A program made the translations under genes and the position numbers. 64,000 nt of DNA. It comes from Astropecten irregularis (Eukaryota > Echinodermata > Asteroidea > Paxillosida > Astropectinidae). Shown piece after piece: positions 15,001 to 64,000 of this stretch (the stretch's first letter is position 1; each line of letters begins with the position of its first letter). Below the pieces are notes generated by a model that did no database searches, was not told where the DNA came from, and was given only the letters and a program-made list of their open reading frames with translations. Location of the stretch: NCBI GenBank assembly GCA_963971285.1, contig OZ020244.1, positions 4,154,001 through 4,218,000 on the forward strand, given 5' to 3'.

Positions 15001-18000
15001 CTGCCTGGAATGCTATATATATTCAGAAAAAGAGCAAAACCAATGACCAAAAACAATTTTGATCTTTAAAAGATCAAAAATAACGGTGTATTCGTGAAAT
15101 AACCACAAGGGAAACTGACTGAGTTGTTTTAAGTCATTGAAAAGTGAACAAAGAAAAATTCTACTGGCTGGATGGCTCAGTTGGTAGAGCGCCTGTACGG
15201 TATTCAGGAGGTCGCCGGTTCGAATCCCGCTCCAGTAAAAAATAACGGTGAATAGATTTTTTAAATACTATGGCCGTTTTTCACTATTTTCTCAAAAAGT
15301 GGGCACCGTATGGGACTTGGAATTTTGCAGATGGCTGCTACTGTATCTTTCTTGATATTTTTGCTCATGAATCTGCATTTCTTTGACAACCAAAGTATGA
15401 TGTGACCTTTAATTGACCATTGAAGTTTATTATGATTCAGCTTGTTTGGCAATTCCTAGCTTTTATACTGTCAGCAGTAGTTAAAGGTCATATCATACTT
15501 TGGTTTTTGTCAAAGAAATACAGATTCATGGGCAAAAATATCAAGGAAGATACAGTAACAGTCATCTGTGAACATTTCAATCCCGTACAATGGCCACTTT
15601 TTGAGAAAACAGTGAAAAATGGCCACAGTATTTCTTAAATCTTTTCACTGTTATTTTTTATCTTCCAAAGATCAAAATAATCTTTTACCCTTTTCTGGAT
15701 ATATACAGCATTTCAGGCAAAAAGATTTTAACGGTATGTTTCTACCATCACCATCTTTATACCCTGTAATATGTTATAGGTAAATCTGTGCAGATTTCTG
15801 TTTCGGTATGCTACCAAAGTATGATACTACCTTTAATGTACAACTATGTCAACATATTTCTAATAGGCATATCTCCAATACTATTTCATGTCTCATTTCC
15901 TTGTTGATAGTCTGTGCGCACGACTGTCAAACCTTAGAACGAGTTTATAGACAGCACGTAGTACGAGCAATCTGTCATTGCAGCATTGTTGATATCCGGA
16001 TACAGTTGCCAGGATGTAAAAGCGGCCGTCTGTTGTAACAAGGAGTGATTCGTTGCTTTTAACAGTTCCTTATTGAACTGGGGTTGGTTTCACTAGTCCT
16101 ATCTCGAGTTAAGACGAGTAACTCTTCCTATAACTTTAGGACTAGACCCAAGTTTTGAAAGATCATTTTCACAAAACTTTAGGGGCCAATTTCACGGCGC
16201 TGCTAAGCACAAATATTTTCTTAGCACAAAAATGTCTTGCCCAATAAAACAAATCACTGTTAAAAATTTCATGTGATGTTCATGGTCAGCCAACAACAGC
16301 CAAAGAACAATCACAAGCGATACGTATTATAGATATTTGGTTGTTAACCCTGTTGTCCCCCCTCCAAATCCTTCACGGTTACACCATGCACGCATTTGAA
16401 ACGCTAAAAAGATCGTTCAGATGAGCGATCTTTTTAAAAGACACTAAATCATGATTTCCTTGAAAAACCCAGCATCTGCTGAACCAAGATGGTGACTGTT
16501 TGCACTGTTTAATACGAACTGTTGAATCCATTTTCTGTCTCAAACTCAACAAATTTTTTGGAGGCCTTGAAAACCCTGTACGCTGCATTTAAAGTATAAT
16601 TTAAAGTCTAAATTGCACTGCATGAAACCAAATGGGGGTAATTTACGACTGTTCTCTTTATATCAAGAGCTGCCAAATTTCGCCCCCACCTTACCCCCCT
16701 CCCTCCCCAGCAAAGCCCTTCCATTGTTGATGACCCCCCTGAATTGAATTTGTCCACGGCTGTCGCGTTAAGAGACTTTTATTAGGGTGTGGAGGATGTG
16801 CTGTGGTTTCTTACTAAGAGTCTGAGGATTACTACGTAGCTTTATGAGTAATACAGATAGTAGACTATCCTTGTTCGTATATAACCAGCCTCCGCGCATA
16901 ATAGCTCTGTCAGCGACTCTGAATCATAGCATAAGGCCTACAGTCGGCCATTTATTAAACTACAACAGCATTCAGGCTTCGAGCGGTCCACAGTTCATGT
17001 ACATGCATCAAGTATTATCAACTTCATGACCAGTGTAGTGTCTTCGCCTCCTTGCGGCAACCGCCCGTGACTCGAAGTGGAATATATTACTGGATTTTGA
17101 TCATATTTTCTCCACCATGGCCCAGCTTAAAATGCGGTACCCGGCAAGTAAGTAACCACTTCATTGAGAGGGTTTAGGGATGGTACTTCTTTGCGAAGTT
17201 GGTTGGGTGGTTGTGTTAAAACTTGGCAAAGGGATGAATGCTATTCTAAGTCTAACTGGATGTTGAGTCACCGCGTGTAAATCTTGCCGTCGCTTTTTTC
17301 ATTCAGAATTGGCCTAGAATCTTAAACGGCCCAAATCATTGCGGCCATGTTGGATCCTTACAGTACATGTACATTAGATTTAATTTCAACGTGATTCAAA
17401 AAGGAGTTGACCAGGATTGGTGATGTTTTTTGAAAACATCCAAATGAAATTAAAAAGTTCAGTAAAGCATATATTTAACAAGCACTCTCTCCTGCTTATT
17501 AGAAAAAAGAATGAAAAAAATTTGATCATTCTTAAGGGGAGTTATGTCTATTTTTATGAAGGTACTCTTTTTTGCAAGCTGTCCATGGAATACTTGACAA
17601 AACAAATGTAATGTATGCATTCTGTGTACGTTCCTTTTACGTATCTTTCTCAAAGGCTAATGGTCAGAGTTAGGAGGGCCTGACATTTCAATCCTAGCAG
17701 GATCTTTCTCAAAGGTTAAATGGTCAGAGTTAGGAGGGTATGATGTTTCGATCCTAGCAGGATCTTTCTCAAAGGCTAATTGGTCAGAGTTAGGAGGGCC
17801 TGACATTTCAATCCTAGCAGGATCTTTCTCAAAGGTTAAATGGTCAGAGTTAGGAGGGTATGATGTTTCGATCCTAGCAGGATCTTTCTCAAAGGCTAAA
17901 TGGTCAGAGTTAGGAGGGCCTGACGTTTCGATCCTTGCAGGATCTTTCTCAAAGGCTGAATGGTCAGAGTTAGGAGGGCCTGACGTTTCAATCCTAGCAG

Positions 18001-21000
18001 GATCTTTCTCAAAGGCTAAATGGTCAGAGCGAGGAGGGCCTGATGTTTCGATCCTAGCATGATCTTTCTCAAAAGCTAAATGGTCAGAGTGAGGAGGGCC
18101 TGATGTTTGAATCCTAGCAGGATCTTTCTCAAAGGCTAAAACTGTTAGAGTTAGGAGGACCTGACGTTTCGATCCTAGCAGGATCTTTCTCAAAGGCTAA
18201 ACTGTAAGAGTTAGGAGGACCTGACGTTTCGATCCTAGCAGGATCTTTCTAATAACCTTTGAGAAAGATCCTGCAAAGATCGAAACGTCAGGCCCTCCTT
18301 ACTTTAAGCATTTACCACCCTTTGCTGCTTACTCAGATGTTAATATTCAGTCAAGCATTAACATTCTATGGACAGCTTGCAAAATGAGTACCTTTATTAA
18401 AATAGACATAGGCCTAACTCCTCTTAGGAATTTTTTTTCATTTTTTTTCTAATAAGCAGGAGAATGCTTGTTAAATATTTGCTTTACTGAACTTTTGAGT
18501 GTCATTTGTTTTGAAAAACATCACCAATCCCGGTCAAGTTCTTTTTGACTCGCCCTGTGTTTGTACATGACGAATTCAACAAAAGGTCGTGTCCTAAATC
18601 TCTGGCTGTGGTGGCAAATAATGCACAAGTCTATGGAAATGGCTGCAGTCACTGGCTTGTGGCTGGAATCGGATGATAGAGGGCGTTTATGATATAGTTT
18701 TGTCGAATTCATAGATCCGTTGCAACAGTGCCGGTAAATAGCGCTCCGCACTTGCGCTAAAAATAGTACCGGATCTCAGACAAACATTGCAACCATGCAC
18801 ACGTGCGTGGGTGTGCGCGTGCTTGTACATAACGTGTGTGAGTCAATGTTTGTCTGACATCCGGGGATTTTGTGACGTCATTAGTGCGGATTGCTATTGC
18901 CTTGTGTGGCCTATATGACTTGTAGTTTGGTCTGCCAGTGAAAATGGAACGTGGAAATATCTTTTTGAATCAAGTCAATGACCTGGTGCTGGGCACCAAG
19001 GTCATTGAACTTAGGCCACTTAGTCAGGGCACCAAGGAAATGGCTAGGGACCGTCTAAATCAGTGACCAGGGACACTAAGGCTGCGTTCGAGCGGTTACT
19101 CCCGGTAACACGAGTGTGATGCGCGCGCAATACTCTCCGGTGCAGGAGTATACTCCCCAACGCTGGAGAGTATACTCTTGCTGACCCGAGTGTGGTACTC
19201 CGGCCGTTCGAGCGCTCAGGAGTATACTCGTGTTAACACGAGTACCTCGCTCGAACGCAGCCTAAGGCAATGACCAGGGGCAACAAGGCAATGCCTATAG
19301 GTACCAAGGCAATGACCAGGGTACCAAGGTAATGACCAGGGGCCAATTTCACTAAGCACTTATTAGTCTTAAGTGTTAACTAATCTTAATTGCTAAGCAA
19401 AGTGTGATGACACAATACAAATCACCATGGAGATACTGACAACTCATCTTAAAAGATTAATCTAGGTAGGCCTATTTGTTGAAATCCGGCCCAGGGGCCT
19501 CTAGACAATAACCAGGGGCACCAAGGCAATAACCAGGGGCACCAAGGCATATGCCCAAATAGCGCTCCGCACTTGCGCTAAAAATAGTTCCGGATCTCAG
19601 ACAAACATTGCAACCACAAATGTGTGTGCGCGTGCATGTACATTACACTACGTGTGTGTGTCAATGTTTGTCTGACATCCGGGATTTTGTGACGTCATTA
19701 TAGTGCGGAGCGTATTGCCTTTCCGAAGTTGAAGTCTTACATGAACACAGTCAGTCCATGCTGATTTTGAAGAAAAATACAGAAGCCACAAACAAATCTT
19801 GGAGGAGTTTTTTATTTTACAGCAGTTTTTTGACAAGATTTGATTTTGGTTTGTGACTGCAATCCCCGTCTTTCTAAAACTATGCAAATAATAAACTACT
19901 GCAAACTGCTCATCAACCAAAATGCCTTTGAGAAAGATCCTGCTATGATCGAAACGTCGGGCCTCCTAACTCTGACCATTCAGCCTTTGAGAAAGATCCT
20001 GCTATGATCGAAACGTCAGGCCTCCTAACTCTGACCATTTAGCCTTTGAGAAAGGTCCTGCTAGGATCGAAACATAAGGCCCTCCTAACTCAGACCATTT
20101 AGCCTTTGAGAAAGATCCTGCAAGGATTGAAACATCGGGCCCTCCTAACTCTGACCATTTAGCCTTTGAGAAAGATCCTGCTAGGATTGAAACATCAGGC
20201 CCTCCCAACTCCAAACACCCAAAAACTACCGAATAAAACTCACACAGCCTCCTTCCGAAGAATCTCTTTAACGACAGGTTCCTTGCTGATAAATCTGATC
20301 ACACAAACCTTTGTCAACTCGTGACATTTCACAAAGTTTATTTTTATATTCCCTGATTTCTCCATGGCGATGTCGGTGCTATTTTTAACTTCTGCTTTCG
20401 TCATTCATTAAAATAGCCGGTAGCCTTTATTGGCTAGGCTTGTTCATCAAGAGTCTCCCCTGTGTGTGTGTCATAGGTGGTCTGTTTCGTCGTTGATTGA
20501 ATTTGCCGTTGAATGTCAGTAAATTTGCACCTTACCTTGAAGAGGATTTGCAGCATGCATCCTGATATGCTTGCGTTAGAAAGTCCGAGCAGACCCGCCC
20601 CCAGACCCGCCCCCTGTTAATACTAACAGGATTAAAGCTGGCTTCCGTTGAAGTAATAAGTCAGAACCCTTAGGCCAATTTCACAGCTTTGCTAAACGGC
20701 CGTTTTTTTTTTCTTTTGGCTAATTGTGCGATTTCCTTTTTTCCCCACAAATTGTAAGCACTTTGCAGTGTAAGCTCTAAAGCTGTTTAAGGGCATATAC
20801 AAATGTGTAACAAACAAAAATGGTAAAGGTAATACCATACTTTGGCTGTTCATGGGCATAAATATCAAGAAAGATACAGTAACAGTCATCTGTGAAATTC
20901 ACAGTCCCACTCAGTGCCTTTTTTTTGAGAAAACAGTGAAAAACGCTTACGGTTTTTTTATCTTCTGTAGATCAAAGACGTTTTGGTCATTGGTTTTACT

Positions 21001-24000: not shown

Positions 24001-27000
24001 TTGGTCTTTGTTTTCTTTAATTTCTGGAAAAATTCAGCATTTCAGGCGGAAAAAATGTTAACGGTATGTTACCAGCACCGTCTTCATACCCTGAAAGTTA
24101 CACATTTCTGTGTGGGTAATACCAATCCTGTACTGTACCTTTAAAATTAATTCAGTCAGTTTCTCATGTGGTTATATGATGATTGTGTTTTTCTTCTGTT
24201 TATTTATGCAGCAAAGCCTCCGATTGCCCAAAAGCCTCAACTTTTCAAGAAACCTTCTCCAAGCGACATTCCAGGAGGTGCCAGTAGCCCCTCTAAAAAA
24301 TTCCCGATCGTTTCGTCGTCACCTCCAAGAACGAGACCCAAGCCCCGAACAGTCAATCTGAAATCCACCAAAAGCCCATCCATGGATAACATCTATGATG
24401 AGGTGTATTCCGAGCAGACGGGATTACCGTCGGACTCTGTTGCTTCCATCGATCGGGAAAGGTCCCACTCCAAGAAACTGGAGAAGATCTTGGGGCCCGG
24501 CTGCCCATCCGGGGACCAGGCCACCCCAGATGCCGCCACCCAATCCACAAAATCAGTAAAGGAAAAAGCGATCAAGTTTTCCACGCCGGCAAAGTCCGCT
24601 AGCGACAGGGAAGGACCTTACGCCGTCATACCCCTCCCAGATGCCGACAAGACCGCCACCAAGAAGACCAAGAATCCAGCTGAGCAGAAAACCAGGAAGA
24701 TATCCGACGGAAACGGCAACTCTGTTGTCCTGAGAAACTCGGGCGGTATGTCCAGCGGCGATTCGGGCATCGGAAACGCCGTCATCGACAAAGTAGGAAT
24801 TAGTCGGAAAGAGCGACGTATGTCTCGAAGGATGCTCCGAGAAAAAATGAGATCCATCGATTCAGACTTCACTGAGGACTCAGATGATGAGCCGATTGGC
24901 GCTGAGTCCGATTTTGACTCGGACACATCCGTGGAAGAGCCGACTATATTTTTGGATGAGAGTCACAAGAAAGCTTACGAGGTCCTTACAACGGAGCGGA
25001 AGTACGTGGAAACCCTGTACCTCATAAACCAAGTAAGTTCAGGGGCCAATTTCTTAGAGCTGCTTTGCACAAAAAAATGCTTAGCACAAAAATGGCCTGC
25101 CCAATAAAACAAAACACCATTGAAAATTCGATTTGATATTCGTGGTCAGCAAACAACAGCCAAAGAACAATTGCAAGTGATACACAACACATGGAAATTT
25201 GGTTGTTTATTCTGTTTTTAAAGACAGAAATGTTGTGCTTAGCGGATTTTTGTGCTAAGCAGCTCTATGAAATTGGCCCCAGGTTGTTCCTGATTGTGGA
25301 TGAAGAAACTTTATATCCTTCCTTAGCCCCGTCCACACGATTTCACGAAGCCCGGCGATTGATCGTAACTTGATTTGCGAAGGATAACCCATTGTAGGAG
25401 GTCCATCCCATGTACCTCCTCAATGCATCAAAAGCCCAACGATTGATAGTAAATTACGAAGAGTTTGGTGAAATCGACCCTTGGACTTTTTTTCCGGGAG
25501 TTTCACTGAGCTGATGGGTAAATGAAAAATAGGCAAATATTACTGGTGTCCGCACTTCGACTTTCGATTCTGGTAATTTAACCGTGCACGTGCGGAAGAA
25601 TAACCGAGCTGTCAATACTAGGCTCATGAGGGTACCTGACTCACACTGGACTTTTCGTCTTGGGTAAATTGTCTCGGGAATTCTTCCTGGGCTGAAGTTG
25701 GCTGGTAGAAATACCCGCGCGGGTCGGGAAAAGTAACTGAGAGGAAGACTTCCTGAGACGTCCGCACTGGACTTAAAATGGGTTAAGTACCCAGCGTCTC
25801 AGTAACTTTGCCCTAAATAAGTCCAGTGCGGACAGGGCTTTTGGCTTTAATCAGCACATGAGGGTCACAAAACAAGCCAGAAAACTTTGCCATAACCTAG
25901 TCGTCGGGGGGACAATTTTTGTTAAGCACAAAACAAATTAGTATGTGGATCGGTTTGCAGAATCAGAATGTAAGAATCGTTTGTACTTTCGCACTTCTAT
26001 TTTGTTCGCACTTCTCGTTAGGTCTTAACATTTCGACTAGCCTGAACTAGTCCTCATCAGAACATGACTAGAGCAGGATAGTCGAAACATTGAGACCTTA
26101 CGAGAAGCGCGAACGAAATACAAGTGCTTAAGTACGAATGAATATTACATGGTTTTTCCGCAAACCGATCCACATACCAATTGTCACCATGCAAAGCCTC
26201 AAATCTTTCTGCTACAGAGCCCAAATTCATGGAATCCGTTATGGCCTATTTTTGTTCTTATGTGCATTGCTTTGTGTGAAATCTATTTCATGGAATCCGT
26301 AAGCAAGACTTTTGGCACTAAATCGGTTAGCGAAGAATTTCTAGGCTAACCTTGAGCAAAAAAAAAAGTCTGCTACCATAAGCAAAGAATTTTTGCTTAC
26401 GGTAACGGATTCCATGAAATTTTCCCATTTGTAGCAGTTTATTATCAAAACTGGTGCATTACCATTTAGAGTGTTGAGCTAAATAAACAGTCTCACTTTT
26501 TACATATTCCAATGTTATGATGAAAAATTATGATGAAACTTTGCTTAACTCCCAGGCTACCAGCTTACCACAATTTTCTTTTCCTGACCAGATATTCTTA
26601 GCCCAGATCCAAGCTGAGAACCAGAAGCAACATTGGTTTCCTCAGACGGCACTCAACGAAATCTTCTCCAACGTCACGTCAATCTACCAACTCCACTCAG
26701 CGGTATTGCTACCAGAGTTAGAAAAACGATTAAAAGAATGGTAAGTAAATGCAGGTTCAGCCATTTTGCATTCTCATATTGTCATCTTTCACGCTAGCAT
26801 CTTAAAAAAGCTAAATCTTCTGATATTTTAATGATATTCACTGTAAATATTATTCACTATTCACTGTGGGGGTGTTTTGGCCTAGTGGTCAGGGCCAATT
26901 TCATAGAGCTGCTTAAGCACCAAAATTTGCTTAAGCATCAAAAACCTTGATAAATAGAATCAGTATGCCAGACAAAACTCCTTGTAAATGTTATGCTCAG

Positions 27001-30000: not shown

Positions 30001-33000
30001 TATTGGCTTCAATCCTTGACTTGCAGCCAAAATTAAATATCGGACAGCAATAACTTTTAAAGGGAGAGAATCTTTAATACTGGTCGGGCCCAGCCACTGA
30101 AAAGCCTGGCCAGGCCTGGGCTTTGCTCAGGCTCTGCAGCTTCTGTAATACAACTTTGGTCATGGACAGTACACTGTATCCATTTGAAGCTGAACAATAG
30201 CCACATCTCAGACTTGATGTGGGCAGGACTTCAGTCTGGGCAAGCCATCCAGTGGCCTGGCTGTATTGATTCAAAGCAGCTCTGTTGTATTGAAGTTCAG
30301 AGCTAGTAAAAGGAGGATTTCAGGCTTGAAGGCCCAGGCCTGGCCAGGCTTTTCAATGGCTAGGCCCAGGCAGTTCAGAGCTAGAAAAAAGAGGATTTCA
30401 GGCCTGAAGGCCTAGTCAAGCTTTTTAACGGCTGAATAGACCACAAGCTTGTATCACAGTCACTTGATAACTATTTCTTCATAACCTTTTTTTCAGAAAC
30501 ATCCACTTTGTGGCAACCTCACTCTTCAGCATCACATGCTCACGCCGATACAACGGATACCCAGATACGAACTTCTTCTAAAAGGTCAGTAACGATAACA
30601 TTAATACTCATAGAAAGGAAAGGGTTATTCATCGCGGTAGTTCAAACCGGGGGGAAAAGATGATCAAAGTCACGCGATATTGTGTAGCTGTTAGCGACGT
30701 TTTTGTTGCTAGGGACCTTTCTTAAAGCTCAGCTTCAGGCTCAGGTTCTGTCAGACTTGAGCTCCATTTTGTTAATCTGTTGTAAAATAACAGGTATCAA
30801 AATAGACACTTTTGGCTGTGGTCAGAAGTAGATTCTCTGGTTTGAAAAGGAAAACAGAGCTTCAGCTTCAATGAAAAACCACAACCTTTATTTTCAGCAT
30901 ATGGATGACAGAGACAAAGCCAGAGCCAAAGATCCTGCTAGGGTCGAAACGTCAGGCCCTCCTAACTCTGACCAGCCTTTGAGAAATATCCTGCTAGGAT
31001 CAAAACGTCAGGCCCTCCTAACTCTGACCAGCCTTTGAGAAATATCCTGCTAGGGTCGAAACGTCAGGCCCTCCTAACTCTGACCAGCCTTTGAGAAATA
31101 TCCTGCTAGGATCAAAACGTCAGGCCCTCCTAACTCTGACCATTTAGCCTTTGAGAAAGATCCTGCTAGGATTGAAACGTCAGGCTCTCCTAACTCTGAC
31201 CATTTAGCCTTTGAGAAAGATCCTGCTAGGATTGAAACATCAGGCCCTCCTAACTCTGACCATTTAGCCTTTGAGAAGGATCCTGCTAGGATCCAAACGT
31301 CAAGCCCTTCTAACTCCAAGCATGTGAACAAATTACAAAAAAACACAACGAATCTCTCTGTTCGAAATGAATGAGTTACCTACATGGGCGTTTCCTCCTC
31401 AACCACTCTGCCTGTCATTGGAGGGAGTTGTTGTCATGGCGTTGGGCTGTCATATCAAGTTTCCTATTTGATATTTGAAGTGCAGTGAAGATGACCTGAC
31501 TGTAAGCCAGCTGAGCTCACTCACTCTGCATTCAGACTAGGTCCTGGGGCAGTTTGGAGGTGGATTATCTCTTTTGCAGCCGACCGTTCACACTGTGTAC
31601 GAATGCCCCCGCTTTCCGGGGACAATTCACGGTGGTTTCAGCTGTGTTGTGGGTAAGGTCACTGAGCATAGACTGTAGCGGGTGTGCACTTATGATGAAA
31701 ACAGCTGCGCGATATCAATTATGAGCCTCAAAATTTTCCGTATCCAAGGAACTGTCTAGGTAGCTTACTGCGACCAACGAAGAAGTCCTTCATATCCCTG
31801 TGTATTCAGGGGTCAATTTCACGAAGCCCTACGATTGATCGTAAGTTGAGTTACAAAGGATAACCCATCGTATCCTACGTCAAACATATTACAAGAACCA
31901 ATGCTAAAGAAATCTGAAGCTAAATTGCAAGGACTTATTATCGTAGGACTTGCATTGTAGCCCTACGTTATACAATGGGTTATCTTTTGTAACTCGAGTT
32001 ATTATCGATCGTAAGGCTTCGTGAAATCGACCTTCTGCTTCCAAGGATATCAGAATGAGATGGGTTTTGAATTGTTGTTGAATTATAATAATTTCATTTA
32101 TTTGACGTTTGTGTGTGTTTTTCCTTTTCAGAGTACTTAAGAAAATTACCAGCTGACTCTGATGATAGAGCTGATGCAGACAGTAAGATTTTGCTCTCAT
32201 TTATTTCACAATTTGTTCTCATTTTGACAGAGTAGTATATTAGAATATCAGTTTCTTATCTTCTTTAAGTCATTGAATTATTTAAAGGGTGTGTACAACA
32301 TTGTTAAAGGTGACAGAACAGCACTCACACTTTGTCTGATCCAGCATGTACATGAAATAATAAACCTGTGAAAATTTTAGCTCCATCGGACATCTGAGTC
32401 CCGAGAAAATAGGGAAAACACGACTCAATTTTTCTTATAAAACATCAAGAAGGCTTTTTCATCTTGCCAAGGTCAAAAATGTTTTAGGTGTTTGGTTTTA
32501 CTCTTTCTGGATAAATACACCATTTCAGACGGAAATATTTAAACAGTATGTTTCTACCAGCACCATTAAATTAATACCCTGAAAATTATACGTAAATCTG
32601 TGAACATTTCTGTTTTGGTTAATTGTTACCAATGTTGTACATGCCCTTTATTAAAAACCACATCTTTAAATTATGGACGCCAATCTTCAGAAACTCTGGT
32701 TTAAGTCCCAGTTCTGTCAAACTTCTGTTGCTTGATCACCCAACAAATATAAAGACATTGAAAAGTGAACAGAGAAAAGTTGACTGGAGTAGGATTCGAG
32801 CCAGCGACCTCCGAAATACCGTACCGGCACTCTTACCAACTGAGCTATCCAGCCTTATGTTGGTGGTGTCCCTAATAGTCAATTATCTTTGTTCATTTGG
32901 CCATGGGGTGTGTGTGTGGTTTCATGGCTTCTGACTGCCAAACGAACAAAGATAATTAACTATTGGGGGTCACCGTAGGGCTGGTTGGCTCTGTTGGTAG

Positions 33001-36000
33001 TGTTCCAGAGGTAGTTGGTAATTGGTTCGAATCCCGCTCCAGTCAATTTTTCTGTATTCACTTTTCAATAACTTAAAATTAATCCAGTCACTTTCCCTTG
33101 TGGTTATTTTATAATAAAATATAAAAACACATATACATTCTTAATATTTAAAATGCACAAATACAGATTCATTATTTTGCTGCATTTTTCTTATTGGTAA
33201 CTTTGTTTAAATCATTGGTCTGTTTCATTATTTTCACTTACAGAAGCCTTGATCATTATATCTGGGGCTGCACAACATTCCAATGACATGATGAAAAGCA
33301 TGGTAAGTGGGACCAGAAGTAATATTTCTTTATGCATGTAAAACATATTGTACTTTCATGGATTGTGAACTCAACAGACCATAGACAATACGGGTGCACC
33401 CAAGTAAGTAGTCCCGAAATCCGTCCACCGAGCTCATTCATAAAAGTTAAGCACTCAATATATTATAACTGAGAGAGACCTGAAATTGAGGGATTGAAGA
33501 AATATGGCACTGGACCTCCTGCCTGGACTCTGGGCTTCCATTTGTGACTATTTTTGATGCAATTGGGTGAGAAAGTGGGTCTATTTCAGCCGCTTTGCAA
33601 AGGGATGTTTTTTTTAAATGGCTTCTTTGACTGGAGTGATCCGTACCTTGTTTTAGGGGTGGTCAGCTGAGAATGAGTATAACTCAAAAATTAAATTAAT
33701 GGTCAACCCACCATAAAATGAAAAGAAAATGAAAGGTGACATGTTCATCATCATTTTTCTGTGCAACTTGAACACATGTGACACTTCTGAGTATTTTAAA
33801 ATGATTTTTGAAGTATTAGGATTTATCACTGTTGTCTATGGGAGTTTATTTACTTGGGTGCAGCCATAGCCGGCCTGTGGGATTATGTGTATACAACTTT
33901 TAGCGCAAAACTGTGCCACGATGCACTTTTCATATACCTTCACTACACACTGACTTGGGCCAATTTCACAGTGCTGCTTAGCACAAAAATTTGATATATA
34001 TATATATATATATTGGTTGAGCCCAGCCACTGAAAAGCCTGGCCTGACCTGGGCTTTGCTCAGGCTCTGCGACTTCTGTAATCCAACTTTGGTCATGGGC
34101 AGTACACTGTATCCATTTGAAGCTGAACAATAGCCACATCTCAGACTTGATGTGGGCAGGACTTCAGTCTGGGCAAGCCATCCAGTGGCCTGGCTGTATT
34201 GATTCTAAGCAGCTCTGTTGTATTGAAGTTCAGAGCTAGTAAAGGAGGATTTCAGGCCTGAATGCCCAGGCCTGGCCAGGCTTTTCAACGGCTAGGCCCG
34301 GACATTATTAAAGTTTCTTTACATCAAAACGATTTAGGAATGCTGTGCCTCGCGGACTTGACAGGAGGACTTTCACCTGTTTATGGTGAAGTTTGTCTGT
34401 CGGCTAGTAGGCTGTGGGGTTCCGTGACTCACAAACATTTCCTTATGCATCTCGGCGCAGACGGCGCATGACGAGAGATAGAAACTTCCCTCTGGCGTAG
34501 ACGCAGGGCCAGTCCGGCTCCTGTGGCTGCTAAAGTAAAGATCAACTCTCAAATAGCAATCGTTTTCTAGTGATAGGTCCAACCAATCACAAGCCCTCAT
34601 TGATAGGCCAACCAATCACAAGCCCTCATTGATAGGCCAACCAATCACAAGCCCTTTGCATTGACAGGCCAACCAATCACAAGCTCTCTGCATTGATAGG
34701 CCAACCAATCACAAGCCCTTTGCCTTGATAAGTCCAACCAATCACAAGCCATCATTGATAGGTCCAACCAATCACAAGCCCTCATTGATAGGTCCAACCA
34801 ATCACAAGCCATGTGCATTGATAGGTCCAACCAATCACAAGCCATGTGCATTGATAAGTCCAACCAATCACAAGCCATCATTGATAGGTCCAACCAATCA
34901 CAAGCCATGTGCATTGATAGGTCCAACCAATCACAAGCCATGTGCATTGATAAGTCCAACCAATCACAAGCCATCATTGATAGGTCCAACCAATCACAAG
35001 CCATGTGCATTGATAGGTCCAACCAATCACAAGCCATGTGCATTGATAGGTCCAACCAATCATAAGCCCTCATTGATAGGTCCAACCAATCACAAGCCCT
35101 TTGCATAGATAGATCCAACCAATCACAAGCCCTTTGCATAGATAGATCCAACCAATCACAAGCCCTCTGCATTGATAGGTTCAACCAATCACAGGCCCTT
35201 TCCATTGATAGATCCAACCAATCACAAACCCTGTGCATTGATAGGTCCAACCAATCACAGGCCCTCTGCATATGAAATTTAACCATCGTCTCGAACACGA
35301 CGGCTTAAAAATCTGCACTCACAAAAAAAGATAACACAGGGTATGTCTGCCTCTCAATATGTACTGTTAATTAAGAACACTTCCTGCCAAAAAAAGTTTG
35401 TTGACCTTGTGCAATGACCTATATATTCATTTTGCAGTTCTTGGGCGGATCCAGGGGGCGTGGCATGGGGCATACGCCCCCTTTTTCCTTCAGCAAATAA
35501 AACAAACAAAAAACCAACACATAGAAAGGGAGAAAGACTCAAAAAGAGAAGGAAAAAGAGGGCGAGACGAAATTAATTGACAGTTCATGTCCGGCCCACC
35601 GTAACCTCTTAGCTTTAATCACCCCGAAATGCATCCATCACTATTGAATCGGTGCATTATTTCTACGCCCACCTTTTGGAAAATCTAGGATCCGCCCCTG
35701 ATATTTCAAATGTCATCTAAGCTGCAGAAACAATCTAAAATTCAAATTACTCACACTCCCGATCGCCTTTTGCCACAAATTCGTTTTCCTGACCCATCCC
35801 CGACCTTCAACCACAATATTATGTATGACGTATTTGTTTTGACTTATCACAAAATTCACCAAACTGTGACCCCTGGGGCCTTTTCCAAACCTCGGCTCAG
35901 GCTCTGGTTCCGGCTCCGGCTCTGGCTCCGGCTCTGGCTCCGGCTTCGGCTCCAGCTCCGGCTCCATTTCGTGCATCCATTCTAAAATAACGTATCAAAA

Positions 36001-39000
36001 TAGAGGCTTTTGGCTGCGGTTCGGAAGTAGATTCTCTGGTTTAAAAAGGAAAACAAGAGCTTCGGCTTCAATGAAAAACCACAACCTATATTTTCAGCAT
36101 ATGGATGACAGAGCCGGAGCCTGAGCCGGAGCCGGAGCCAAGGTTTGGAAAAGGCCCCTCATATCATCAATACAGGGTGAGTCAAAAAGAAGTTGACCGG
36201 GATTGGTGATTTTTTTCAAAACAAACAAATGACATTCAAAAGTTCAGTAAAGCATTTATTGAACGAGGATTCTCTCCTGCTTATTAGAAAAAAAAAGAAT
36301 GGAACAAATTGATCATTCCTAAGAGGAGTTATGTCTATTTTAATAAAGGTAGTCATTTTGCAAGCTGTCCATGGAGACTGAATGTTAATGCTTGACTGAA
36401 TCAAGCATCAGAAATGGCATAAAGAGTCATTTTAACTACAGTTAAAATGCATACATTGGTTTTGTCAAGTATTCCATGGACAGCTTGCAATATGAGTACC
36501 TTTATTAAAATAGACATAACTCCTCTTAGGAATGATCAATTTGTTTCATTCTTTTCTCTAATAAGCAGGAGAGAATGCTTGTTAAATATTTGCTTTACTG
36601 AACTTTTGACGGTCATTCGTTTCTTTTTGAAAAAACATCACCAATCCCGGTCAACTTCTTTATGACTCATCCTGTATATGCTGTCAGGCTAGCAGCGTAA
36701 GCATTTACGTCATAAATATCAACTAGTCATGGATCATTCTGGTCAAAGTCTGCGCGTAATAACGCACTGACAATGTATTTGGGGCGTGTACGGTTAGCGA
36801 GGGCAGTGTTATCTTTGCGTGTTTAATTCATAGTATCATCTTCACTTCCCATAGGACTTTTCCAGACAATTCAATTTCCTAAATGTTTGCGGCAAACTCA
36901 ACCGCCATTTGCAATCTGTTCTTATTATAGGTCAGTGAGTCATGTAGCCTTTCTATCCAATGGTTATTTATGGAGGCTTTGACTACTTACAGAACAACTC
37001 CATATTTGGATGCTCCAAGTTCGAAGTGCATCTCACAGTTAATGTTCATGTTGTTACTGTGGATAAATGTGGAACTTTTACAGAATGCTTGAAGTTAGGA
37101 GGGCCTGATGCATTTTGATCCGAGCAGGATCTTTCTCGAAGTGGTCAGAGTTAGGAGGGCCTGATGTTTTGATCCTAGCAGGATCTTTCTCAAAGGCTAA
37201 ATGGTCAGAGTGAGGATGGCCTGACGTTTCCATCCTAGCAGGATCTTTATTAAAAGCCTAAATGGTCTGAGCTAGGAGGGTCTGATGTTTTGATCCTAGC
37301 AGGATCTTTCTCAAAGGCTAGATGGTCAGAGTTAGGAGGGCCTGATGCATTTTGATCCTAGCAGGATCTTTCTCAAAGGCTAAATGGTCAGAGTTAGGAG
37401 AGCTTGACATTTTGATCCTAGCAAGATCTTTCTTAAAGGCAAAATGGTCAGAGTTAGGAGGGCCTGATGTTTCGATCCTAGCAGGATCTTTCTCAAAGGC
37501 TCATCAATGGTCAGAGCTAGGAGGGCCGACATTTTGATAGTAGCAGGATCTTTCGTAAAGGCTAACTGTTAAGAGTAAGGAGGGCCTGACGTTTCCATCC
37601 TAGCAGGATCTTTATCAAAGAATAAATGGTCAGAGTTAGGAGGGCCTGACGTTTCCATCCTAGCAGGATCATTCTCAAAGGCTAAATGGTCAGAGTTAGG
37701 AGGGCCTGATGTTTCAATCCTAGCAGGATCTTTCTCAAAGGCTAAATGGTCAGAGTTAGGAGGGCCTGATGTTTCAATCCTAGCAGGATCTTTTTCAAAG
37801 GCTAAATGGTCAGAGTTAGGAGGGCCTGACGTTTCAATCATAGCAGGATCTTTCTCAAATGCTTAATGGTTACAGTTGGGAGGGCCTGACGTTTTGATCT
37901 CGGGGATCAAAACTGTTAAGTCTTTAATTTTACTCATTTCTGGATAAAAACAGCATTTCATGCAGAAATATCTAAACGGTATGTTTGTACCAGGTCCATC
38001 TTTACAAGTTTACACCCTATAAGTTAAATCTGTGAACATTTCTGTTTTGGTGTCCTGTGAAAGTACCTTTAATGTCATAGCTCTGCTTTAATGCTGTACA
38101 CTGTAACTGGTGCTCAGCATATTTCACCGGTAGTCAAGACATATCCCATGAGTAAAGATTCCTGCTTTCATACACTTGCTTTTAGCACAACTGTGAATTA
38201 AAATGAGCCCCGAAGAGAGGCTACGAGTCCCCAGCGCGACCGGTATCCGTGAACACGCCACATGTTGGGAAGACAGGAAAAGGGGAATTTCCTTGACAAA
38301 TTATTACCTTCCTGACATCGTAGTGTAAACTTTTGACATTCGGGTTGCACCAGGGAGGACTTTGCAGCTAAATCTAGCTTGCAGGGTATTTCTACCTGGA
38401 CAGTAAACTGGGAATTGCTTCAAGTGTAGTATCAGTATTTCCTCCTGTTGTTTGACATTGGGGGCGTTCAGACACAGTACTAAAAGTGGTCTATCTTTGG
38501 TTTAAACCGAAAAGGGTCTACCTACTTGTGTCTGAACAGTCTAAGATAGACTGTTTTGGGTATTAAAAACTGTGAAAACTTAGACTGTCAAGGAGGGATG
38601 GTCTAGACTACGTAGACCGGTCTACAAATGGGCCTTAAAGGTAGTATCATACTCAGGGTTCTAGCCAGACCAATTTTAGTGGTGGGCTCTAGAAATGAAG
38701 TTGAGCCGTGGTGAGAAAAATGCAGCGCAACATGATCAAGGTCCAGGGCCAACATTTTCACGGTTCCGACGGCAGCACCATTTAATGGTATAAAGCTACA
38801 TTTTAAGGACTGATATTCAATGAATTTCAGGTGTATAACAGAAAAGAGTGAACTTTTATTCAGGAATGTGATCAAAATTCACAATATTGGCAATACTTTT
38901 ATTCACTCTGCAGAAATTCGTGCTGGGCGGCAGAGTTTATTTTAGACCTAAGTTCCGGGCGCAAATTTCCAGTGCCGGGCTGGCCCGCCCAGCGCCGCCC

Positions 39001-42000
39001 ACCGTGGCTAGAACCCTGGTCATACTTCAGTAAGAGACCAAAACAAAAATGTTCACAGATTTACCTATAATTTTCAGGGTATGAAGAATGCTAGTAGAAA
39101 CCTACCGTTAACATTTATCCAGAAATTGGTGAAACAACGACCGAAAATCTTTTTGATCTTTTAAAAGATCAAAAATAAAAGACTTAAGAAATACTGTAGC
39201 TGTTTTTCACTGTTTTCTCAAAAAGTGGGTACCGTATGGGACTGAAATTTTCACAGATGACTGTTGCTGTATCTGTCTTGATATTTATGCCCATGAATCT
39301 GTATTTCTTTGATAAAAACCAAAGTATGATACTACCTTTCAGACATCTGAACAGTCTATCTCAACCACATCCGGTTTAGCTTGACCGCGAGCAGTTGCAT
39401 AAGTCACCGGTGATTTATGTCACTACTTGTGAATTAACGGAAGTTTGATTTCGGATTTTATGCAACACGAGTAACCTCTAAACACCAGAGATAGACTGTT
39501 TTCAGTTTAACCCTGCGTAGTATGGACACAAGGGGTTTAGGATGAAATGTTTACCCCCTGTTTACGCGTTGTGACTGCAAAGGGAAGACCTTTTTCGGTC
39601 TCCGGAGTACTGTGTCTGAACAAAGCCATTGAGCTGCACATCTACCACTTTCTTCGCAGGAAACACCAGACTCTATTGTCACTAAGTGTACTTTTAGACA
39701 GCATTTTATTAAAATCCAATTGAGTTAAACCGCTCGGCAACCGTGGGGGGTAAGTCTGTATTAAAAAGTTAAAATTCTGTTGCATCCATACAGCATTTCA
39801 CTGTTTGCAGTTAAAACAGATCGGTTTTATTTTTGGTTTTAAGAGGTCATGCACTGTGCCTTGACCCCGTACGGGCTTCCAGTTATAAAATAAAGTTCGC
39901 AGATTTATCTGTGTGTTGAATATAAACAAGCACGCCACAACAGGTGTTATGTAACCAGCTGCCAGGCTTCTCTGCACTGAAACAGGATGTCGGAAAGTTA
40001 TTCTGTCCCGACAGCGTTTTAGCAGTAAACTCGATCGGTTTTAAGCGCTAAACCCTCCTTCCGAGCAGTTTTAACTTTGGCGTTTTAGCGGCGGATAAAA
40101 GTGTTTAGTGAGTATTTTAGATATAAAACTGTTTTAGAGCATCCAGACACATATAACACGCTGTCTGAACGTATCGATCCAAAGTACAAAAAGTTGGCCT
40201 TTAGATATTTCAGGAAAGTATAAACTATCGGCTAGACTTGCTTGGGACACAGGCTGTGGAGGTTTCCGTTCAGAAAGTTGAAGTTCAGTAGGTTTTAAGT
40301 TCATCGTGTTGCACATTTTTGCTTATGAATGTCAGGGTTGCATTTGACGTTCCTATCAGTGTCATCTATATTGGAATTTCTCTCTTATATCAAAGCCAAA
40401 TGTTGTTGTGCGTTAGTGCCTTTTTATACATGTGTACATGCGTATTGCATGACTTTTCCATTGTGACATCATCGTACCCTTAAAGGTATATGTACTATCG
40501 TACTTCGGTAGGAAACCAAAACAGACATGTTCACAGATTTACGTATAACTTACAGGGTATAAGGATAGACCTGGTACATTCATACCGTTAAAATTGTTCT
40601 GCCTGAAATGCTGCAATTTTCCAGAAATGAGTAAAACAAAATGTCGAAAACAGTTTTCTTTGAGATCAAAACCTCACAATTTCAATAACCTCACAATTGC
40701 GCGTAATAACGCTTTTCGCTGTTTTCTGCTGTTTGACCAATGATCAATTGAGCTGAAAATTTCACAGGTCTGTTTTTATTTCAAGACCAATCAAGGTAAT
40801 AGTTACAGAACAGCTCTCACACTTTGTCTGATCCAATATGTGCATAAAATATAAATAAACCTGTGAAAATCTGAGCTCAATTGGACATCTTTATAGTCAC
40901 GAGAAAAAAGCGAAAACCCGACTCATTTTTTCTTATAAAACATAAAGAATGATTTTGATCTTACCTGAGATCAAAACTGGTTTCGGTCTTTGTTTGACTT
41001 ATTTCTTGATAAATATACCATTTCAGCTGGAAATATTTGAACGGTATGTTTCTACCAGCACCATCTTCATATCCTGAAAGTTATACGTAAATCTGTGAAC
41101 ATTTCTGTTTGGGTATTTGTTACCAATCCTGTACTGTACCTTTAAGGCATTGATGTCACCGCAAACATTTTGTGTATTGTCATGGCGACCTGGTTGTCTC
41201 TGAACCAAATGATTTGATGGGCCTAGTTGTTTTGTTTAAAAACAAGAGGAAACGTTTTCATCATCTGTCATTGGCTAGGTTATCCTATATTATCATAAAT
41301 GAATTTAAAACACTTCTTAAAACTTACCTATTCCCTTCATATTTCTTTTGTTATTTCCTGTGAAGCGCATCGAGACTATGGTATGATGGGCTATATAAAA
41401 ACTGTCATTGAAAAGTGAACAAAGAAAGAATGGGATTTGAACCAGCGACCTCCAGAAAACCGGACCGGTGCTCTTACAAATTGAGCTACCCAGCCCTACG
41501 TTGGTGGTGTCCCTAATAGTCAATTATCTTTGATCGTTTGGCAGTCAGAAGCCATGAAATCACGCACGTGGGATGTGCCAATCAATTTTTTTGATCAATG
41601 GACCCTTCCGGCCTGTCAATCAAACTGTGCGCTTTGACCAATTGGAGAACGGCTTTTAATCAGGTGACCATGAATGCCTCAGTCAAACTTGGTCGCATGC
41701 AATAATGTAAAAACATGTGGGCGGGGCTTAAGAGCAAAGCCGGAACGGTCCATTGTTACTCAGCTTGAAAAAAGATTTGAGGCTTTGCATGGTGACAATT
41801 GGTATGTGGATCGGTTTGTGGAAACACCATGTAAAAATCGTTTGCACTTTCGCACTTCTATTCTGTTCATACTTCTCATAAGGTCTCGTTTCGACTAACC
41901 TGCTCTAGTCATCATCAGGTTACTCAGCTTGTCTACTTTTGGTTTTTGTTCTCAACCAGGACCAGTTTGAGAAGCTCTTAAAGATCAACGAGAAGATCGA

Positions 42001-44075
42001 CGGAGAGAACATCATCGACCCTACCAGGCATCTACTGAAAGAAGGCAAACTCACCAAGATCGGGAACAAGAACAAAGAGCCACAGGACAGATACATCTTC
42101 CTGGTAAGGACTAACGTTTGGATCCTAGAAGGATCTTTCTCAAAGGCTAGATGGTCAGAGTTAGGAGGGCCTGACGTTTCCATCCTAGCAGGATCTTTCT
42201 CAAAGGCTAAATGGACAGAGTTAGGAGGGCCTGACGTTACAATCCTCGCAGGATCTTTCTCAAAGGCTAATTGGTCAGAGTTAGGAGGGCCTGACGTTTT
42301 GATCCTAGCAGGATCTTTCTCAAAAGCTAGATGGTCAGAGTTAGGAGGGCCTGATGTTTTGATCCTAGCAGGATCTTTCTCAAAGGCTAAATGGTCAGAG
42401 TTAGGAGGGCCTGATGTTTCAATCCTAGCAGGATCTTTCTCAAAACGTTTCAACTAGCCTGCTCTAGTCATCATCAGGAGACGATTGAAATTTCATTTTT
42501 GCTGTTCATTGCATCTTTTCGTTGGTAATCATTTTTTTCATTTTTTTACGTGTAGTTCAACGACATTTTGCTGTGCTGTGAGAAGAAGCGTTTACTAACC
42601 TACGCCAACTACAAGGTGAAATTGAGGATGGACGTTGATGGCATGATGGTGAGTGTGAGTAAAAACTCTCGTACATTTTTTAACCCCAAGCTAATAAAAG
42701 TGGGCAGATTTGGGTATTCGGGTCCCTGGGGCCGATTTCACGAAACTCTTCTTATGTTAGGATCGATCTCAGGACTTAGGACGAGTCCTAGCTGTAAGAT
42801 CGATCTTAGCTATGACGCGTCCTAGGATCAATTTCACCAAACGCGTCTTAGCCAAGATCAGTCTGCCATGCTGATAAATAAATTGTAATTATTGGACGAG
42901 GATGGCCTTTCCAAATACAACGGCTGCACCATGTTTACTTGATTCAATTGGAAAGAATGGGTGCAACAGCCGTTGTTTTATGCTTGTGGTGTGCGCGCGC
43001 AGCATGAATGAAATACGTAAACTCAAGGTGGCTGATTGGTTGCTGTTCTGGCGAAAAGTTTTTATCTGCTGAAATAAAATATCTGCTAACTCGTAACGTA
43101 CTCACATGGGTGACAAGCTCAAATCCATATGCCAATCTCGAAATAATCCCTGTCAAACAATAGACCATCCGCTATGTTTCCCTTGTCATTTTAATCTATC
43201 GAGTGCATTTCTAGTCCAGTCATGGAATATTAACTCGCCTAGCCTATAGGCCTACCTCCTACCTATGGTTGAGAGTTTTTTTTAGCGTGGTGTGAAAGGG
43301 CCTTTACTCTGGTCTACGATTGTGAAACTTGAACTTTGACTGGGGAGTGGGTAGGCGACTCAATGTCTTCGGTACTGGGTCTCTGAGGAGGATCCTTGGG
43401 TACTGCTGGTCGGACCGTGCGTCTAACGAGAGGTTACTCAGGGAGAGTCAGATGAGACCTATTACCTGCATGATATGTGAGCACCACTGCACCAGATACG
43501 ACTGTGTCTTTAGTCTGGGAAATTCAAACTGGGGTATTTATATGCAATGAAAGAAGTCTGTGTACCAGATACTATTCAGATTGAACTCACAAATGGTTCA
43601 AGTCCTCACCTTAATACCATTCATCAAACATGCACTGCACAGTTTTATATAAATGTGAAGAAAGCATTGGGATTGTTCAACTTTGGAGGCATTTTACACG
43701 GCAGGCTTCCATTAAACTTTGGTATTCTTGTTTTTGTTTTTGCTTTGGTTTCCCATTAGGTCTTGGACAGCAATGGTTGTAGGTTCATCATAGAGAGCAA
43801 GGGTAAAAGCATCGAGTTCCAGGCCAACTCTGAAGAGGACCGCGAAGACTGGATGAGGGTGAGTCCATATCTCTCTTTACAAACGGAGGCTTAGGCTCGG
43901 GCTCAGGCTCAGGCTCAGACTTCATTTTGTGAATCCATTCTAAAATAACTGGTATCAAAACAGAGGCTTTTGGCTGCATTTCAGAAGTAGATTCTCTGGT
44001 TTGAAAAGGAAAACAGAGCTTCAGCTTCAATGAAAAACCACAACCTATATTTTCAGCATATGGATGACAGAGCTG

Positions 44076-44171
<96 letters not shown>

Positions 44172-47100
44172 CCGTTTTGGAAAGGCCCTGTGATCCTGTC
44201 CTGTGTTTCTTAAGCTACTCAGCTAGAGTCCTTTTTAAAAAACTAGAGTTTGCACTCTGCGCATAATACATTCGTTCATGGCGTAATTAATTGTCTAAGA
44301 GGGAAACATAAAGAGTTACATCAAGAAAACAAAATAAAACCTGAATTTAGAACCACAAAGGCTAATTTCATGGCCCTGCTTAGCACAAAAATATGCTTAC
44401 CATGAAATTTCTGTCTTAATAGAAACAAGATTAACAACCAAATTTCCATGCATTGTGTATCACTTGTGATTGTTCTTTGGCTGTTGATCACTGACCATGA
44501 ATATCAAACGGAATTTGTAATGGTGTTTTGTTTTATTGAGCAAGACATTTTGTGCTTAGCAAATTGTTTTGGGCTTAACAGCTCCATGAAATTGGCCCCG
44601 GGTCAAATTCAAATGACTGCACTTTGAAAAGGTAAATTATGCGAACCTGTTTCTTTCTCAAATACTAATAGGAAATGATCTTAGCCGTAAATGAGATGAC
44701 TCGAAAGAAAGAGAGTTTCAAGATGAACGACGCTGTGGCAGACAGACAAAATGGAGTTGGCTATGAAAGCAAGGTATTGACTGGATATATCCCCTCATGC
44801 TTTCCCTGTTTCCCTGGTCACTCTGTCCCCCTTTGTTCTGATCCTCTCGTCCATTTATGTGTATCTTTACTTGCATGTTCTTATCCTCTTGTCACTTAGC
44901 CTTTGAGAAAGATCCTGCTAGCATCGAAACGTCAGCCCTCCTATTAAACTCTGACCATTTAGCCTTTGAGAAATATCCTGTTAGGATACAACATGTCAGG
45001 CCCTCCTAACTCTGAAAATCTAGCCTTTGAGAAAGATCCTGCTAGGATGGAAATGTCAGGCCCTCCTAACTCTGACCATTTAGCCTTTAAGAAAGATCCT
45101 GCTAGGGTCGAAAAGTCAGGCCCTCCTAACTCTGACCATTTAGCCTTTGAGAAAGATCCTGCTAGGACCGAAACATCAGGCCCTCCTAACTCTAAGCATT
45201 TAAAGGTAGTATCATACAGAAATGTTCACAGATTTACGTATAATTTACAGGGTATGAAGATGGTGGTGGTAGAAACATATCGTTCACTTGTTTTCTGCCT
45301 GAAATGGTGAATTTATCCAGAAATAAGTAAAACAACGACCTGAAATCTTTTTGATCTTTTAAAAGATCAAAAATAAAAGAGAAAAGACTTAAGAAATACT
45401 GAGGCTGTTTTTCACTGTTTTCTCAAAAATTGGGTATGGGACTGAAATATTCACAGATGACTGTTACTGTATCTTCCTTGATATTTTGGCCCATGAATCT
45501 GTATTTCTTTGACAAAAACCAAAGTATGATACTACCTTCAACACATCCACTATGAGGTTCTTGGCTATTATAGTTTTTGCTTAGATACAAGTCAGAGTGT
45601 ACCACTCATGATCAGGGGTCAATTTCATAGAGCTGCTTAAGCAAAAAAAGTGCTTAAGCATGAAATGTCTTCCTTGATCAAACAGGATTACCAACCAAAT
45701 TTTCATGTGATGTTTACTGCTTTTGACTTTTATTCAGCTATTGTTTGCTGAGCATAACATTCACAAGGAGTTTTGGCCGCACACTGATTTTATTGAGTTT
45801 TTTGGTGCTTAAGCAAATTTTGGTGCTTAAGCAGCTCTATGAAATTGGCCCCAGGTATACAATTTGGGTTATAGACACAGATGTTTAAAATGCAGTGTTT
45901 CTTTTTGATATGGCTTCTTTGTTTCTTCATACAGAACCAGGTAATTCCCGGAAAGGTTGAGCCAAGATGGATCCGAGATGATGAGACCACAATGTGCATG
46001 CGATGCGGTACGGACTTCAAGCTGACTAAACGGCGGCATCACTGCAGGGCCTGTGGAGCTGTGAGTACCTAATTACCTAGATATCAAATAAATAAGAGCA
46101 AAGAACATTGACTGCAGCAGGATTTGAACCTATATTCATCGAAATACCATGCCTGTGCTCTACAAACTGAGCTATCCCGCTTCTGACACCATGTAATAGT
46201 TGTGGGTCTTAGACTTTCACAAACAGAGACACTAGAGACAGATTTCAACTCAATGTTCTACTGCAGGGCCTGTGGAAGTGTGAGTACCTGATACTTAAGG
46301 GGCCCGTATCTCACTGGGCTTGAAACTAGTTCGCAACTACTTTGCGACTCCAGATTTTACTAGTTGCAAAGACGTCTCCGTGACATCACAAGTCGTAAGA
46401 AATTTAAATTTGATTTTTGGAAGACTTTTTCCAGTCTCTGCGTCATTTCAGAGACGCCTCCATCACTAAGCAATGTCGCAGAGAGTAATGATATCCGTGA
46501 CTGCTGAGATGTCTCATGGATGTCTTGGCGATGCCATGGAGACCTGTTGGAGACCAGAAAGACTGATGACATGTTGTGGTGACGTCCCCACGACTCTACT
46601 TGACGATGTTTGAACCACTTTAAGGCCATATATATCTCACCAACTGGAGAAGTCTCTGTGACATATCCAGACCAAGTGACAAACACTTTGCCCAACAGTC
46701 TCAGAAACGTTGCTGCAAAGTCTCCCAGTAGTTGCATAGACGTCTCTGCAACGTCTCATCAGTTTTTCTGGTCTCCGGAAGGTCTCGGCAGCGTCTCAGA
46801 GACATTGCGGAGACGTCTCAGCAGTCGCAGATATCATTAGTCTCTGTGACGTCTCTAAAAGTCAAACATGTTTAAACTTCTTGCAACTCCTCAGAGACTC
46901 CTTTATTTTCAGGACACATCTCGCAGACATCACAGAGACGTCTCTGCAACACGTAAAATCAGGAGTCGCAAAACAATGAGATACCTCCTTTTGAAACCAT
47001 GTGACTGAACGCGTGCTGACAGATCACACTGTTTGGAACGTTGAGTGTTCACCATCGGTTCTTCTCAGAACCACACACTTATAGAAGAGGTTTTGTACAT

Positions 47101-47803: not shown

Positions 47804-47840
<37 letters not shown>

Positions 47841-52187: not shown

Positions 52188-52437
52188 ATTCCTATCTGGA
52201 TATTATTTGCTATCTAGATATTCTTTGGTTTAGATATTTCTGCTTTCTAGATATTCTTTGCTTTCTAGATTTTCTTTGCTATCTAGGTATTCTTTGCTTT
52301 CTAGATATTTTTGCTTTCTAGATATTTTTGCTTTCTAGATATTTTTGCTTTCTAGATATTTTTGCTTTCTAGATATTCTTTGCTTTCTAGATATTCTTTC
52401 CTATCTAGATATTCTATGCTATCTAATTATTCTTTCA
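52188..52437 (+). repeat. ~19-bp minisatellite TTTCTAGATATTCTTTGCT
   Basis: About 13 units with lengths 17-20, each containing CTAGATATT or CTAGGTATT. No coding. Confidence 0.9.
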
Positions 52438-52467
52438 GCATGCACAGAATTTTCAGCTAGATCAATG

Positions 52468-63828: not shown

Positions 63829-63881
63829 ATTTCAGGTCATTATTTTGGTTGATGAGCAGTTTGGAGCAGTTTATTACTTGT

Positions 63882-64000
63882 ACAGTCGAACCTCATTAAT
63901 ATGAGCTCTCTTAAGAGGAGATCCCTGTTAAGACGAGCATATCACGCCGGTCCCGACCGAGTTGTACACTTTTCTATGGGGAACTATTGCTTAATACGAG
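63882..64000. mobile_element. Left end of a pogo/Tigger-like element, cut by the window edge
   Basis: TACAGTCGAACCTCATTAAT followed by ATGAGCTCTCTTAAGAGG and TTAATACGAG. CAGT(C)GAACCTC next to TA is the usual start of pogo-group elements. Confidence 0.55.

Follow-up and report, generated by a model that had tools for sequence, protein, structure and literature searches.

A hammerhead-like 60-bp minisatellite of Astropecten irregularis, probably derived from the terminal repeats of a GIY-YIG Penelope-like element

Minimal hammerhead ribozymes are said to occur in tandem in the pseudo-long terminal repeats (pLTRs) of Penelope-like elements (PLEs), as reportedly described by Cervera and de la Pena in 2014 and by Lunse et al. 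in 2017. Here we analyse a 60-bp tandem repeat in a 64,000-nt stretch of the sea star Astropecten irregularis (contig OZ020244.1, forward strand, 4,154,001 to 4,218,000; below, the window, from whose first letter positions are counted). The repeat unit is very probably a hammerhead-like module of the pLTR of an endonuclease-positive (EN+) PLE with a GIY-YIG domain, and its arrays are very probably tandem expansions of that module, a statement on origin and relationship that does not extend to catalysis. The unit, a module of a PLE pLTR that has a variant hammerhead core and was amplified into minisatellites, is of a general kind that is known already: tandem minimal hammerheads in PLE pLTRs are described in PMC7761336 and PMC7229834.

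The minimal PLE hammerheads resemble the unit in their pLTR location, tandem copies, near-absent stem III and a palindrome that permits a dimer; they differ from it in that the core here is UUGAGAA instead of CUGAUGA, the unit is 60 bp long and Rfam does not recognise it. A hammerhead also lies within a pLTR of PAc (Poseidon, Anolis carolinensis), a PLE that shares with the element described below the reverse transcriptase (RT), the GIY-YIG domain and a tail (PMC11167929). PAc has C3 and G8, whereas the present unit has U3 and A8 and is a candidate ribozyme; cleavage of PAc needs the PLE protein and is partly restored by the double change C3G/G8C, a paired 3/8 change that thus partly rescues a PLE hammerhead (PMC11167929). 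Natural hammerheads with U3-A8 replacing C3-G8 are described in section 8 of PMC3088659, and such cores are active in vitro. They have U3 and A8 in common with our unit, which also has G7 and a base before stem II, two features on which that section is silent for its examples. The EN+ Penelope families of Adineta vaga are alike in their pLTRs, adjacent head-to-head inverted pLTR, optional tail and palindromes, features of EN+ PLEs in PMC3846280 and PMC11167929; their tail measures 31 bp, as against ~62 bp here, and the word hammerhead is absent from PMC3846280. Our literature search, which covered few subscription journals, found no publication on a hammerhead in an echinoderm PLE.

Tandem Repeats Finder reports an array at 17643-18250 with a period of 60, 10.1 copies and 90% matches, its sense strand being the minus strand. 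This bears out a 60-bp satellite that an earlier note on this DNA had placed at 17646-18300 and likened to half of a hammerhead; those coordinates cover one array out of seven in the window, which lie on both strands. The sense consensus is AGCCTTTGAGAAAGATCCTGCTAGGATCGAAACGTCAGGCCCTCCTAACTCTGACCATTT. It holds UUGAGAA, one A, a 6-bp stem II (GAUCCU/AGGAUC, loop GCU) and GAAAC, all as the note described, and the exchange of C3-G8 for U3-A8 is seen both in the consensus and in the PLE copy L093 described below. The word "half" did not stand: the unit is more than half a hammerhead because a GUC and a 4-bp stem I are also present. The cleavage triplet, thought not to be obvious, is the GUC immediately 3' of GAAAC, and the AGGC right after it can pair with GCCU just 5' of the core. 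The tandem order is thus GUC, stem I (AGGC...GCCU), core UUGAGAA, one base, stem II, GAAAC and the next GUC. A proposed stem III of GUCAG and CUGAC is not needed; the ACGU of adjacent units can pair, and stem III is possible only between two units, as ACGU/ACGU or, in the pLTR copy (L093, L088, L089), as palindromic ACGCGU/ACGCGU. Positions U4, G5, A6 and A9 of the hammerhead consensus C3 U4 G5 A6 N7 G8 A9 are matched, and G12 A13 A14, A15.1-U16.1 and H17 are present as GAAAC followed by GUC (GAAACGCGUC in the pLTR copy).

A descriptor of this layout matched the sense unit once and neither the antisense unit nor any of 60,000 dinucleotide shuffles; it was written by hand after the unit had been seen and so gives rarity, not an unbiased p-value. 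Among 180 distinct units the core is TTGAGAA in 106 and TTGATAA in 13, the latter differing from CTGATGA at positions 3 and 8 only. The 3-8 pair of the 38 exact YTGATRA units is U-A in 36, U-G in one and C-G in one, too few to say more.

The link between hammerheads and PLEs drawn in the earlier note proved sound, the same unit sitting in the pLTR of GIY-YIG PLEs. The searched genome (475.7 Mb) has 60 GIY-YIG matches, and 10 of these loci were fetched; six contain the terminal unit (L084, L085, L086, L088, L089 and L090), two of them with the tail in addition (L084 and L088). One locus without the unit, L081, resembles a bacterial UvrC. The element L093 was picked for its open frame of 921 codons (stop to stop). 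It matches GIY-YIG with 26.5 bits, above the cut-off of 22.6, and RVT_1 with 28.7 bits (E 1.4e-6), just under the cut-off of 29.6. The open stretch lies between direct repeats, the pLTRs, which are 100% identical over at least 452 bp, a lower bound because the fetched stretch has its edge where the 5' repeat begins. Each repeat holds one unit, AGCCTTTGAGAAAGATCCTGCTAGGATCGAAACGCGTCAGGCCCTCCTAACTTTAAGCAT, with the core UUGAGAA, and then the tail. L088 and L089 share this unit, and that of L084 is altered in the core. As UUGAGAA stands in both identical repeats of L093, and L088 and L089 share their unit, this core belongs to a recent element and did not arise by decay of the arrays.

Comparison of L047 with L093 shows 117 of 120 positions identical in unit plus tail, as against 83% over 321 columns in the upstream pLTR (3/120 versus ~56/321 differing columns, Fisher p 7e-6; the contrast comes from a single pair of copies, in which the two parts of L047 are separated by an insert). 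The better-kept unit and tail suggest some role for that end, possibly in priming. L082 and L087 are two further PLEs, their proteins being 66% and 54% identical to that of L093 within the aligned part; neither 3.2-kb locus shows a 60-bp unit.

The terminal form of the unit, GCCCTCCTAACTCCAAGCAT, occurs at 6,931 places in the whole genome at no more than one mismatch, and the reversed pattern at none. Of 30 loci fetched for the terminal form, 21 show the unit running on into a tail of ~62 bp; the tail is downstream in these 21, inverted upstream in 4 and at both ends in 0 (L031/L032 and L057/L058 are pairs at one place each). An alignment of 22 rows, one without a tail, gives a common tail end at ...TTTATTACTTGTA. 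On the upstream side, some copies are cut off at varying points, some hold as many as ~18 internal units and others open with a terminal unit in inverted orientation. In the loci read, the 3' ends of copies are sharp, their 5' ends are ragged and head-to-head inversions occur, a pattern also described for PLEs; the 3' terminus is unlike the internal units. Template jumping during PLE reverse transcription would have spread and multiplied the unit. A 50-bp version of the unit forms a long homogeneous array at L092 (C19:8162000-8165000), with the core CTGAGAA (C3, A8).

This anatomy bears on two other origins. One is a non-autonomous DNA transposon, or a foldback element, in which long inverted repeats enclose an internal minisatellite. 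It would account for the inverted terminal units, for L072 with tails at both ends and for the position of the 17643 array between inverted arms matching 17393-17718 and 18253-18551. We consider it very improbable given the one-ended tails of the 30 terminal-form loci, the ragged 5' ends and the presence of unit and tail in the repeat around a coding PLE, and the same inverted arrangement has been described for PLEs (PMC3846280). Equally improbable is a metazoan retrozyme that moves in the form of small RNA circles. In its favour, every tandem unit has a hammerhead layout and the genome has PLEs; published metazoan units, however, are 150-450 bp long with type I hammerheads (PMC7229834), as against 60 bp with the non-canonical core UUGAGAA, and the distinct 3' terminus speaks against it as well.

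Under the PLE origin, the copies and fragments of the unit in the window are as follows.

17643-18250, minus strand: array of about ten 60-bp units
18253-18303, plus strand: single inverted unit, head-to-head with the 17643-18250 array at that array's sense 5' end
19885-19923, minus strand: inverted fragment of the PLE tail, abutting the 19924 array
19924-20211, plus strand: array of 60-bp units
30928-31316, plus strand: array of 60-bp units, some of them 56-57 bp
37085-37899, minus strand: array of ~13 60-bp units, with the terminal form at 37085-37141
42108-42444, minus strand: array of 60-bp units flanked by two CTGATGA hammerhead relics
44829-44879, plus strand: pLTR upstream segment, 77% identical to the L093 pLTR, just 5' of an array (alignment score reached by 0 of 300 shuffles)
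44896-45202, plus strand: array of 60-bp units
48717-48801, plus strand: pLTR upstream segment before an array, with local-alignment bounds (score reached by 0 of 300 shuffles)
48921-49466, plus strand: array of ~9 60-bp units
63236-63349, no strand: two single terminal units, head-to-head (palindromic solo form)
63808-63882, plus strand: 5'-truncated copy consisting of a terminal-unit end and tail

The flanks upstream of the arrays at 44896 and 48921 align with the part of the pLTR 5' of the unit, in each case at the scores listed, and tail pieces lie at 19885 and 63823. The window arrays look like fossil expansions, seemingly without constraint. The array at 17643 lies between the arms of an inverted-repeat element of ~500 bp (~17391-17600 and ~18350-18560), as if nested, and this element is also present at two other places, 36169-36675 and 56197-56694.

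Hammerhead motifs with a canonical core are present in the same genome. Motifs of the form CTGATGA...CGAAACGTC in other families number 344, versus 3 for the reversed pattern. The intact-core relatives whose absence the earlier note had held to count against a hammerhead therefore exist as these other families and, for the 60-bp unit itself, as one copy with exact CTGATGA and the same stem II at C27:9575759, where a chance double change is possible. One CTGATGA family is a 54-bp tandem repeat (L009) that matches the Rfam type III model across adjacent units with 28 bits (E 0.0012 in 901 bases), below the gathering threshold of 48.5; this was the only one of 18 scanned loci, most of them with CTGATGA motifs, in which Rfam named a hammerhead. 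A stem II of at least 3 bp forms in 15 of 21 CTGATGA motifs with a one-base spacer and in 0 without it, indicating that the extra base before stem II is general in this genome. The base is present in the 60-bp unit as the earlier note had seen, and the doubts raised there over the triplet and the extra base weaken because GUC follows GAAAC and the CTGATGA families carry the same base. Three of five measures of stem covariation in the CTGATGA families lie above all 500 shuffles (both-side changes in 14 cells, shuffled mean 5.1); the two measures counting pairs and types are not exceptional, being reached by 167 and 138 of the 500.

We built a covariance model, R1, from the 21 CTGATGA motifs, including no 60-bp unit. 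In the window it ranks four CTGATGA-family relics first, at the following three places.

26015-26103, no strand: head-to-head pair of hammerhead relics of the same CTGATGA family (R1 29.3 and 15.0 bits)
41876-41930, minus strand: hammerhead relic with CTGATGA, of another family than the 60-bp unit (R1 30.5 bits, E 1.3e-7)
42432-42489, minus strand: CTGATGA hammerhead relic joined inside GAAACGT to the 42108 array (R1 28.5 bits, E 5.8e-7)

These relics belong to the family that forms the 54-bp tandem repeat at L009, and the last is fused, inside GAAACGT, to the array at 42108-42444. The end of that array (42100-42120) lies, by eye, near an apparent splice donor (CTTCCTG/GTAAGG) of an exon-like stretch at ~41954-42105. 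After the relics R1 ranks two 60-bp units, weakly (13.5 and 12.9 bits, E 0.054 and 0.083), and a third unit follows behind one unrelated place (10.1 bits, E 0.69). Loci that had been chosen for their CTGATGA likeness match R1 with up to 32 bits, a result that is partly circular. The covariance search that the earlier note had proposed as a check thus gave no Rfam support, weak window matches with the CTGATGA-family model and none in the five PLE-type loci searched. The better-scoring Rfam rows on the array were mostly microRNA precursors, at the inverted junction, and CRISPR repeats, with one stem and GAAAC; we took them as chance.

Could the likeness to a hammerhead be chance, in ordinary PLE or minisatellite sequence? 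The blank from Rfam and the weak or, on PLE copies, absent response of R1 would fit this, yet the unit sits in a PLE pLTR, where hammerheads are expected, none of the 60,000 shuffles matches the layout (with the descriptor written after the fact) and CTGATGA families with the same spacer and GAAACGTC exist in the same genome. We regard a chance likeness as very improbable.

A number of results weigh against a PLE-borne hammerhead, some of them touching its origin and others its activity. The unit was not found in 4 of the 10 fetched GIY-YIG loci, and no pLTR upstream flank was detectable at five of the seven window arrays. Few copies were inspected by eye for target-site duplications, and none was clear. 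C3 and G8 of the hammerhead consensus are not matched. The Rfam hammerhead models gave no match on the array up to E 10. The R1 scores of the window units are weak (best E 0.054), which counts against catalysis, and at E 10 R1 finds no unit in the five PLE-type loci L093, L047, L084, L088 and L089; these have GAAACGCGTC or GAAACACGTC, with two bases more between GAAAC and GUC than the GAAACGTC of the model. Among the 180 distinct units, core sites are as divergent as other sites (90/1,953 versus 299/6,494, CpG and subfamily sites left out), and stems I and II and the 3-8 pair show no compensatory excess beyond shuffles. An array stretch folds no better as RNA than its shuffles (z -0.28), and this folding did not show the inter-unit stem III. 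Exact matches drop from 2,173 to 2,023 at the base preceding the predicted cut, and a small sample gave no enrichment of insertions starting there: 2 of 15 copies, drawn from 150 lacking the pre-cut base, were true starts, versus 3 of 10 that were non-continuous at a control position (10 of 163, window copy left out). The other 13 continue upstream with a substitution or small rearrangement.

If the motif is active, its hammerhead core would consist of UUGAGAA, stem II, GAAAC and GUC, with U3 paired to A8 and G at position 7, and GCCU/AGGC would form stem I. Stem III would form between two units through the palindromic ACGU (ACGCGU in the pLTR copy), so that cleavage, after GUC, would take place in a dimer. 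That the motif of the young element catalyses cleavage seems doubtful to us, and our estimate was lowered slightly because R1 misses the PLE-type loci.

On balance it is probable that the unit has the same PLE origin and is a dead hammerhead that has lost cleavage; if the unit is maintained at all, this would be for an RNA structure or for a site beside the tail at which the PLE protein binds and primes. The non-canonical core, the failure of Rfam and of the CTGATGA-family model on PLE copies, the lack of a 5'-end excess at the predicted cut and the better conservation of unit and tail than of the upstream pLTR in L047 and L093 all agree with such a loss, and ribozyme mutants of the anole PLE still insert (PMC11167929). 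Against it, the changes fall at the 3-8 pair and at position 7, the sole core position allowed to vary (PMC2837043), and the unit has GAAA, GUC and stem I together with palindromes that would allow a stem III, including ACGCGU in L093, L088 and L089.

Other features of the window are unlike the unit or stand apart from it. A 33-bp tandem repeat, unlike the 60-bp unit, has ~22 copies at 34571-35271, and an 18-bp tandem repeat, TCTAGATATTCTTTGCTT, has ~14 copies at 52195-52462. Hexamer arrays of GAGCCT / CGGCTC lie at 44076-44171, 43887-43918, 47804-47840 and 35893-35965, one of them perfect across 96 bp. Rfam places a histone 3' untranslated region (UTR) stem-loop at 47052-47096 with 34.2 bits, barely above the cut-off of 34; it may be a repeat, because L019 and L050 give similar matches. 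The mitochondrial COX1 (L095) stays open across 517 codons under each of the genetic-code tables 5, 9 and 13, but table 9 alone reads its AAA and ATA codons as Asn and Ile at positions where these residues are conserved, which fits an echinoderm; flatworms use this table as well. Elsewhere in the assembly, a GIY-YIG match at G000:C94:10867-11082 reads like UvrC, and a second COX1 at G000:C131:32162-33484 is open over 552 codons under the standard code; each perhaps marks a bacterial contig in the assembly.

The analysis ties an anonymous 60-bp minisatellite, whose terminal form occurs at thousands of places, to one module of a defined retroelement. The case also allows a PLE's need for individual hammerhead core positions to be judged from nature, since the core retained in a young copy, whose pLTRs are identical, is one that standard models do not accept. 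Tentatively, and with less confidence than for cleavage itself, the hammerhead of a recently mobile PLE lineage in this genome may combine U3-A8 and G7 with an additional base ahead of stem II and with a stem III that two units build from a palindrome; it would cut in the dimer, perhaps together with the protein of the PLE. As Rfam misses it, PLE hammerheads would then be undercounted, and thousands of minisatellites in genomes of this sort would be multiplied modules. Cleavage by the motif would mean that searches requiring CUGAUGA overlook an entire lineage; its absence would mean that PLEs can give up cleavage yet stay mobile and keep the motif.

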